Shown in pieces: positions 9,033 through 11,088 of a stretch of 31,335 bases of DNA. Where the stretch lies: positions 1-31,335 of IMG/VR virus record IMGVR_UViG_3300049855_000300; one strand, given 5' to 3'. Origin of the DNA: a virus. Positions within the stretch are counted from its first letter, which is position 1, and each line of letters starts with the position of its first letter. Position numbers and translations under genes: made by a program. The notes under the pieces are model-generated. The model did no database searches, was not told the DNA's origin, and was given only the letters and a program-made list of their open reading frames with translations.

Positions 9033-9236
9033 ATGAACGCTCAGCTTCCCCCGCCGCGCCGCCAGGTGATCCAGGCGCGCCGCGATGAAATCTTCCGGCT
9101 TCGCGGCCTTGGCTACTCGCACCTGGAGATCAGCCGCATGATCTCGCCCCAGGTAACTCCGCAGCGCATCGGTCAGGTGCTTCGCAAGCCGCGACTGCTC
9201 AAGGCCAGCAAGAACAAAAACACCAAGAAGGTGTGA
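9033..9236 (+). CDS. Small HTH-like protein, 67 aa
   Basis: First gene of the rightward operon. After a basic start it shows RRDEIFRLRGLGYSHLEI followed by SRMISPQVTPQRIGQVLRK, which reads as helix-turn-helix with a recognition helix, then a Lys-rich tail. It may be a small DNA-binding regulator of the divergent promoters. Ribosome binding sites are weak; an in-frame ATG at 9000 would give 78 aa but would lie at the probable transcription start. Its TGA (9234-9236) overlaps a GTG of the HNH frame. Confidence 0.65.
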   Translation: MNAQLPPPRRQVIQARRDEIFRLRGLGYSHLEISRMISPQVTPQRIGQVLRKPRLLKASKNKNTKKV

Positions 9237-9238
9237 AA

Positions 9239-9628
9239 GTGAAATCTTGCTGCGTTGAAGGCTGCTCAAAACTTGGGAACGATGCAATGGGCGCGTGCGG
9301 TATGCACGCGCAGCGTTACAGGCGGCACGGCGACTACTCTTTTGTGACGGATGAAAAAACTCGTCGCGCCAACAACAGGGCTGCGCAGCCTCGGCTTGGA
9401 ACCGCAAAGGGGACGACTTACAAAAAGATGTTCGGAAAGCACGAACATCGCGTTATCGCTGAGAATGTCCTTGGACGCAAGCTTGTGCATGGTGAGGTTG
9501 TTCACCACTTAGACGGCAACAAGCACAATAACGACCCAGCAAACTTGTCGGTCATGACGCAATCGGATCATATTCGGTTGCACTTTGGGGAAATGATGTT
9601 GGAGCGAAAAGCCAAGAGGGGGTATTAA
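9239..9628 (+). CDS. HNH endonuclease (homing-type), 129 aa
   Basis: An HNH nuclease of the type found as free-standing homing endonucleases in phages. The N-terminus has a Cys/His zinc-binding part (CCVEGC...ACGMHAQRYRRHGDY). The nuclease core is HRVIAENVLGRKL, EVVHHLDGNKHNN with the HH pair, and PANLSVMTQSDHIRLH. GTG at 9239 is chosen because AGAAGG lies 7 nt upstream; GTG at 9233 is the alternative. Its stop is directly followed by the helicase gene, whose Walker A codons carry a 4-nt insertion. A mobile nuclease next to a damaged conserved motif is suggestive but not proof of cause. Confidence 0.85.
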   Translation: MKSCCVEGCSKLGNDAMGACGMHAQRYRRHGDYSFVTDEKTRRANNRAAQPRLGTAKGTTYKKMFGKHEHRVIAENVLGRKLVHGEVVHHLDGNKHNNDPANLSVMTQSDHIRLHFGEMMLERKAKRGY

Positions 9629-9629
9629 G

Positions 9630-11088
9630 TTGGAGCTTAGGCCTTATCAGCAGCAGGGGCTTGCAGACATTCGGAAGGAAATTGCCGCTGGTCAGCGCAG
9701 GGTGCTGTATGTCCTGCCGACTGGCGGCGGTTAGCAAGACTGTCCTGTTCTCCCGCGTAGCGAACAACGTATCGGCGCGCGGCAAGCGGGTCGGCATCTT
9801 CGCGCACCGCGTTGAACTGCTCGACCAGATCAGCCGCACACTGGACGGCTTCGGCGTTGCGCACGGTCGCATCGACGCCGACACCCGGCGCGTGAGCGAT
9901 CATGGCGTACAGGTGGTGTCTGCCGCGACGTACTCTCGCCGGATCAATTCGATGCCGATCTTCGACGTCGGCATAATCGACGAGGCCCACCACGTTAAGC
10001 CGGACAACACCTGGCACCGCTGCATGATGAACAGCGAGAATGCGGTGTGGCTCGGAGTCACCGCGACACCGCAGCGTTTGGACGGCACCGGACTCGGGCA
10101 GTCGTTCACGACGATGGTGCAAGGCCCAGGCCCGCGCGAACTGATTGAGGCTGGATACCTGTCGAAGTATGTGGCGTTCGCGCCGCCGTGCCGAGTTGAC
10201 CTGTCGAGCCTGCGAACGGTGGCTGGCGACTACAACCTGAGCGACTTGGCGCAAGCGGTCGATGTCCCTTCGATCACTGGTGACGCTGTAGCGCACTACC
10301 GCAAGCACCTGGACGGAAGGCCAGCGATTGCGTTCTGCGTGTCGGTCGCTCACGCGCAGCACGTTGCCGATCATTTTCGGTACGCAGGCTATAGCGCCAA
10401 GAGCATCGATGGGAGCATGGATAAGCAGGTTCGGGCCGAGATAATGGCCGAGTTCCGCGCGGGCGACCTGCAAGTGCTGACAAGCTGCGAGATCGTGAGC
10501 GAGGGTCTGGACGTACCTGGCGTCCACGGAGCGATCCTGCTTCGGCCCACGCAGTCGCTTGGCTTGTATATGCAGCAGGTAGGCCGCGCGCTGCGCCTGT
10601 GCGACGGTAAGGATCGCGCGATCATCCTCGACCATGCTGGCAACACCAGCCGCCACGGACTGCCTGACGATCACCGTGAGTGGTCGCTGGAGGACAGGCC
10701 TAAGCGCAAGAAGGGCGACGGATGCGAAACGGTCAAGCAATGCCGCAGTTGCTACGCAGCCTATAGCTCCGATCTTAGCGCCTGCCCTGAGTGCGGCTAC
10801 GCGGAGCCTGGGTCGAAGCCGCGTGAGATCGAACTACGGGAAGGTGAACTGGTCGAGGTTACGAGCCGTGCTGAAGCGATGCGCAGGCAGGGGCAAGCGA
10901 GTTCGCTGGCTGAGCTTATGGCGCAGGGGAACAGCAAGCATCGCGCGCTTCATATCCTGGCTGCGCGCGCGCAGAAAGAAATGTTGCGGAACCGTGTACT
11001 AGAACTGGTGCCGCACATAAACCCGCAGGCCCTATTTCGCATGAAGCCAGCGGAACTGAAGGAACTGATCGCGGAGATTGAGCAATGA
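9630..11088 (+). pseudogene. SF2 DEAD/DEAH helicase disrupted in Walker A (4-nt insertion)
   Basis: The reading frame from TTG at 9630 (GAGGGGG 7 nt upstream) gives LRPYQQQGLADIRKEI...RVLYVLPTGGG and then TAG at 9732-9734. The homologous sequence KTVLFSRVANN resumes in the +1 frame at 9736. Removing 4 nt (TTAG or TAGC within 9731-9735) restores PTGGGKTVLFS and one 484-codon frame. Downstream motifs are intact: IIDEAHH, GVTATPQR, EGLDVPG and QQVGRALR, then a CxxC...CxxC zinc-like pair near residues 360-380. The family resembles phage SF2 helicases such as UvsW-like proteins. As written it makes only a 34-aa peptide or a protein lacking the P-loop. A sequencing error is the main alternative. 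Confidence 0.85.

Follow-up and report, generated by a model that had tools for sequence, protein, structure and literature searches.

Short inserts in the Walker A codons of phage helicases beside HNH endonuclease genes: a candidate system of homing and translational bypass

A viral helicase gene was found to be interrupted within its Walker A motif (P-loop) by four nucleotides bearing an in-frame stop, directly downstream of an intact HNH endonuclease gene, and this locus proved to be one of 52 non-redundant HNH-positive lineages in which 1-44 nt interrupt the Walker A codons. Comparison of the sequences established the linkage of HNH and helicase, the tie between HNH and insert, its recurrence, the stops, and a helicase 3' part that is intact and under selection. 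The best explanation, which we consider probable, is homing of the HNH gene combined with a protective P-loop insert and with a translational bypass that rescues the helicase. With rather less assurance, we also lean towards a widespread phage system in which HNH homing endonucleases act on Walker A DNA and protective inserts of these lengths are bypassed, short hops being common, many of them without a full landing match or stem-loop, and the exact P-loop being restored.

The stretch of DNA analysed (the window) comprises 31,335 nt of a virus record and carries siphophage-type genes. The first-pass annotation had named an HNH gene as the one preceding the helicase, and this was borne out by an intact, free-standing gene of 131 aa at 9233-9628 (+ strand), directly 5' of the helicase. 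A profile search matched its product to PF13392 (HNH_3) with E=1e-10 and 41.3 bits against a curated cut-off of 24.8, and the active-site H/N/H residues (HH...N...H) are conserved. After a gap of one base, the helicase, of the SF2 ResIII/phrog_16 type, starts with a TTG at 9630 and has the same N-terminus as its relatives; its 5' part (9630-9731, + strand) runs to the third P-loop glycine (LELRPYQ...LPTGGG). The frame from 9630 reads LELRPYQQQGLADIRKEIAAGQRRVLYVLPTGGG and then TAG. The glycine codons are GGC (9723-9725), GGC (9726-9728) and GGT (9729-9731, + strand), the last of which is the presumed take-off codon and is found at the same place in other HNH-positive lineages. The insert TAGC (9732-9735, + strand) follows, consisting of the stop TAG (9732-9734) and C at 9735, and its AGC (9733-9735) would be the landing triplet. 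The 3' part of the helicase (9736-11088, + strand, stop included) resumes at the Walker A Lys-Thr (KTVLFS...) with AAG (9736-9738) and ACT (9739-9741). The frame 9661-11088 is open, matches phrog_16 (E=4e-83), ResIII and Helicase_C, and retains all the later SF2 motifs (DEAH, TATP and QQVGRALR), and a continuous GxGKT is absent from any one frame of the window helicase, TAG coming after PTGGG. It had been claimed that the gene breaks after PTGGG and resumes in another frame, that the surplus is 4 nt and that a total of 484 codons remains after their removal; each point was correct, and removal of TAGC (9732-9735) or of TTAG (9731-9734) gave the same protein.

The HNH of the window is 52-61% identical to HNH genes directly 5' of helicases. 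This position was shared by every high-scoring locus of the window's type, with the HNH usually 5-30 nt from the first conserved codons of the helicase, and the adjacency held for helicases close or distant, down to 29% identity. A second scan gave 80 loci with a related HNH, 78 of which had a helicase match beside it; these loci were ranked by similarity to one HNH, and the frequencies are those of that group. The family lies 5' of two different SF2 helicase types, the ResIII type and an SNF2 type with the Walker A sequence DMGLGKT. HNH genes of weaker similarity (Javan616, IME-SA4, StenR_269, phiH, BC611 and PAE1) were not beside such helicases, and one helicase emerged when about 400 actinobacterial genomes were scanned, which was left out. 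At L035 (5300-5450) the gene immediately 3' of a related HNH encodes another P-loop ATPase (SPSGGGKT), a hint that P-loop DNA may be targeted rather than helicases as such.

The 52 lineages were counted after removal of near-duplicates and addition of the window, and L033/L159 were left out because several of their genes are broken, as in a poor-quality contig. Inserts of 1, 2, 4, 5, 6, 7, 9, 10, 15, 17 and 44 nt were found, mostly of 1-10 nt, and 48 of the 52 lineages have an in-frame stop directly after the P-loop codon, the expectation being 3/64 each. The other four (L223, L226, L231 and L244) have P-loop inserts without an immediate stop, and a sense codon (CCA or CTA) follows the glycine in L223, L226 and L231. 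TAGC occurs at the position seen in the window also in L227-L230, L232, L239 and L285-L287, which encode the other helicase type. Isolated phages are among the 52 lineages. In deposited phages that have a related HNH beside an SNF2-type helicase, Paenibacillus phage Pd_22F reads GGT-TAGGT-AAA, Ruminococcus phages NatCom_23091 and NatCom_29429 read GGT-TGAC-AAA, and Glutamicibacter phage Montesquieu reads ATG-TAGCTAATC-GGA. Several loci have contig names in the format of isolate genomes, so that the inserts are presumably more than a metagenome matter. The window is so far the sole clear insert case in ResIII-type helicases, its HNH-positive cousins having mostly changed codons. Since inserts differ even between sister lineages, some of them may be young.

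A sequencing or assembly error in the window contig, which the first-pass annotation had allowed for, would be compatible with a single metagenomic contig whose locus has no near relative. However, the identical TAGC, or TGAC, stands at the same spot in contigs of independent origin as well as in phage genomes that have been deposited, TAGC there in a different helicase type beside the same kind of HNH, and the gene is otherwise open; the suggestion is thus not supported, and we regard such an error as extremely improbable.

No close relatives of the window locus were found when searched for, and its portal relatives L052-L054 gave no match to the window helicase. In a first survey, 22 viral contigs encoded relatives of this helicase at up to 48% identity. 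When relatives were aligned for the absence of the four nucleotides, as had been proposed, the HNH-negative ones lacked the insert, and the P-loop was continuous in the relatives wherever the N-terminus was covered. The best HNH-negative identity in the window's family was 48%, with the P-loop intact, and relatives at this distance (48% or less) show solely that the insert of the window is not ancestral. Among about 100 HNH-negative loci of the same helicase family no such insert was found. HNH-negative phages with related SNF2-type helicases had a continuous P-loop in 12 of 12 cases, and in these controls the helicase mostly overlaps or abuts the upstream gene. The proposed link between the site of disruption and the HNH neighbour was thus upheld, with inserts in 51 other HNH-positive lineages and in none of the 12 SNF2-type controls. 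At least eight changes of the HNH trait are required on the tree; independent HNH-positive/HNH-negative pairs gave 6-7 against 0 in the same direction in nearly all pairings (median p=0.016), and the association of insert and HNH across these sequences is more than chance would give. One such HNH-negative phage, Paenibacillus phage NHScienceFair with its intact P-loop, is the sister of HNH-positive L239, which carries TAGC.

The open frame behind the insert spans 412-443 codons in every complete disrupted locus; the frame of L262, which has no insert, ends at 282 codons. Pairs with an identical insert (L281-L282 and L258-L281) gave a dN/dS of 0.08, and values of 0.05 (L265-L279) and 0.18 (L260-L272) were obtained where the stop had changed (TAA/TAG, TGA/TAG) yet stayed a stop. 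Other informative pairs of insert-bearing lineages gave 0.04-0.32, and for pairs with saturated dS only a pN/pS ratio was used. Lys and Thr stand right after the gap in 39 of 39 core lineages, encoded by AAA or AAG and by all four ACN codons. The first ATG lies 5-119 codons past this Lys, and no start codon could serve all lineages. Because the frames are open, dN/dS is low, Lys-Thr is invariant but synonymously variable and a common start is missing, these sequences imply that translation must join both parts of the helicase exactly across the gap.

These observations bear on the proposal of a target-site scar, in which error-prone repair of an HNH cut in the P-loop would have left the insert, along with a helicase that no longer functions but is not needed. 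A scar or inactivation, as raised in the first reading, does account for the place of the disruption, and the varied insert lengths and the 5-nt tandem duplication TTAGG in L213 agree with it. It leaves unexplained the constant in-frame stop, the matched codons flanking the gap and the purifying selection beyond it, and with open frames in all complete disrupted loci, Lys-Thr kept and dN/dS far under 1 for lineages sharing an insert, we consider a scar unlikely. Termination followed by reinitiation would instead yield a split helicase of two polypeptides, as in other genes split by homing endonucleases, known examples being the split products of nrdA, gene 43 and gene 39/60 (PMC2988022). Besides the missing conserved start, eight lineages have a stop just upstream of the Lys in that frame, and Lys-Thr would go untranslated, yet it is conserved; a split helicase is thus highly improbable.

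Another form of recoding, a +1 or -1 frameshift or readthrough giving a helicase with extra P-loop residues, is in keeping with the C behind the stop (TAG C, TGA C), a context that terminates weakly and is prone to shifting in prfB, and with the 6- and 9-nt inserts, which stay in frame. Inserts at the same place fall in all three frames, which argues against any fixed frameshift or readthrough as the common mechanism, and the codon match over the gap would be left unexplained. A +1 shift would moreover spoil the P-loop, as had been pointed out, since it reads GGGSKT in the window and GLGDKT in L215, the Gly before Lys being lost. We rate such recoding as quite improbable. As sole mechanisms, +1 shift, readthrough and reinitiation were all rejected on the insert lengths, the lack of a common start and the conservation of Lys-Thr.

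Bypass, a reading that the first-pass annotation did not contain, fits all insert lengths. With peptidyl-tRNA-Gly on GGU, the ribosome would halt at the stop, pass over TAGC and resume at Lys, restoring PTGGGKT. In 28 of 48 cases the last triplet ahead of the resumption point is synonymous with the codon preceding the stop (for example GGU-UGA-GGU, CUU-UAG-CUU, UUA-UGAA-UUA and GUC-UAG-GUC), and in the remaining 20 (AGC, AGU, GAC, CGC, CCC and the like) it differs by one mismatch, never by two; the AGC of the window has a one-base mismatch to tRNA-Gly. This match suggests peptidyl-tRNA hopping. It could partly stem from duplication at the origin of the insert, and we argue from the wobble differences and the mismatched class that pairing itself was kept. 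Additional RNA structure downstream of the gap was looked for in the group and none was found; the 4-nt gap of the window is too short to fold, and a hairpin within the gap occurs only in L284. There (2780-2850) a 44-nt gap in the P-loop of an SNF2-type helicase begins with GGU-UGA, has the hairpin right after take-off and ends at GGU, and it looks like a second long bypass of the gene 60 type.

With bypass as the preferred reading, the HNH would be a free-standing homing endonuclease whose spread depends on its action at the Walker A DNA of phage helicases, with cleavage predicted at the P-loop. In its carriers the target would stay altered, by changed P-loop codons or by a short stop-bearing insert that protects the carrier from the enzyme. 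HNH-positive loci without an insert usually have unusual P-loops (DCGLGKS, EMGLGKS, DLGMGKS, PCGMGKT and PTAGGKA), and two of them, L263 and L295, keep the canonical DMGLGKT. The tally of P-loop types counted some contigs twice and was uncorrected for kinship. In L138, L145 and L151-L154, also HNH-positive, the P-loops PTGSGKG, PTGAGKG and PTAGGKA lack the usual Thr or Ser behind Lys; substitution may here be another way of altering the nuclease target. A rule that an HNH-positive P-loop always differs from that of its HNH-negative sisters failed, as L026 and L130 share PTGMGKT, and L212 shares GLGMGKT with HNH-negative L306.

L028, L029 and L030 show a tract of recombination that spans the HNH together with the helicase 5' end and reaches just beyond the P-loop. 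Compared in 100-nt bins, L028 and L029 show 92-100% identity throughout the HNH and across the first ~140 nt of the helicase, P-loop included, with a single lower bin (89%) at the far upstream end, and about 75% identity past that tract; L029 reaches 85-94% identity to its HNH-negative siblings only past these first ~140 nt. The L028/L029 tract has the co-conversion pattern expected of homing, as read from HNH-positive relatives and not from the window itself. Among phage records H212-H226, helicase similarity starts past the P-loop region in several Salmonella and Escherichia phages, and some records name an intein, an HNH or a homing endonuclease at that place.

Programmed bypass has so far been treated as nearly confined to gene 60 of T4 and the mitochondria of some yeasts, and no paper on such inserts in helicases was found in the literature searched. 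Dozens of independent inserts that differ in length, stop and landing triplet would offer a natural experiment on ribosome hopping, and the same inserts inform how a selfish nuclease may force recoding on a host gene. Judged from these sequences, many phage helicases annotated as truncated are probably active, and if the reading is true, the P-loop is a general homing target.

Several known systems invite comparison. Inteins and introns occur in the P-loop motifs of phage proteins and are likewise homing elements that target conserved P-loop DNA, but those are spliced, whereas the inserts described here comprise 1-44 nt without any splicing element. A prfB-type +1 frameshift shares the stop plus C after the P-site codon; here, in contrast, insert lengths fall in more than one frame and the +1 product would have no normal P-loop. 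The byp elements of Magnusiomyces mitochondria are short untranslated inserts in many genes that are skipped by the ribosome, and we know of no HNH neighbour for them. They differ in being longer and in involving the mitochondrial ribosome. Byps are mentioned in PMC4592705.

The closest parallel is T4, where mobA, an HNH gene, adjoins gene 60, whose 50-nt insert, laid out as GGA-stop-gap-GGA, is bypassed and is presumed to give protection from the nuclease (PMC5009743, PMC3014915); MobA introduces a nick into its target and shows a high frequency of inheritance (PMC2988022). Both cases have a free-standing HNH beside a conserved gene with a non-coding insert that is absent in HNH-negative relatives and thought to be protective, and a stop right behind a Gly take-off codon; the GGU-UGA...GGU gap of L284 with its hairpin extends the likeness. 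Unlike in T4, the gap is 4 nt in the window and mostly 1-10 nt elsewhere, the helicase Walker A motif serves as the target, the landing triplet often has one mismatch, dozens of lineages are involved as against one phage, and the HNH lies 5' of the whole gene, so that it does not split the helicase. Membership among cassettes of the T4 mobA/gene 60 type is partial, because the stem-loop is missing and because cleavage, protection and bypass are predicted. By analogy, the case that the HNH-helicase arrangement works like T4 mobA/gene 60 is nevertheless a strong one.
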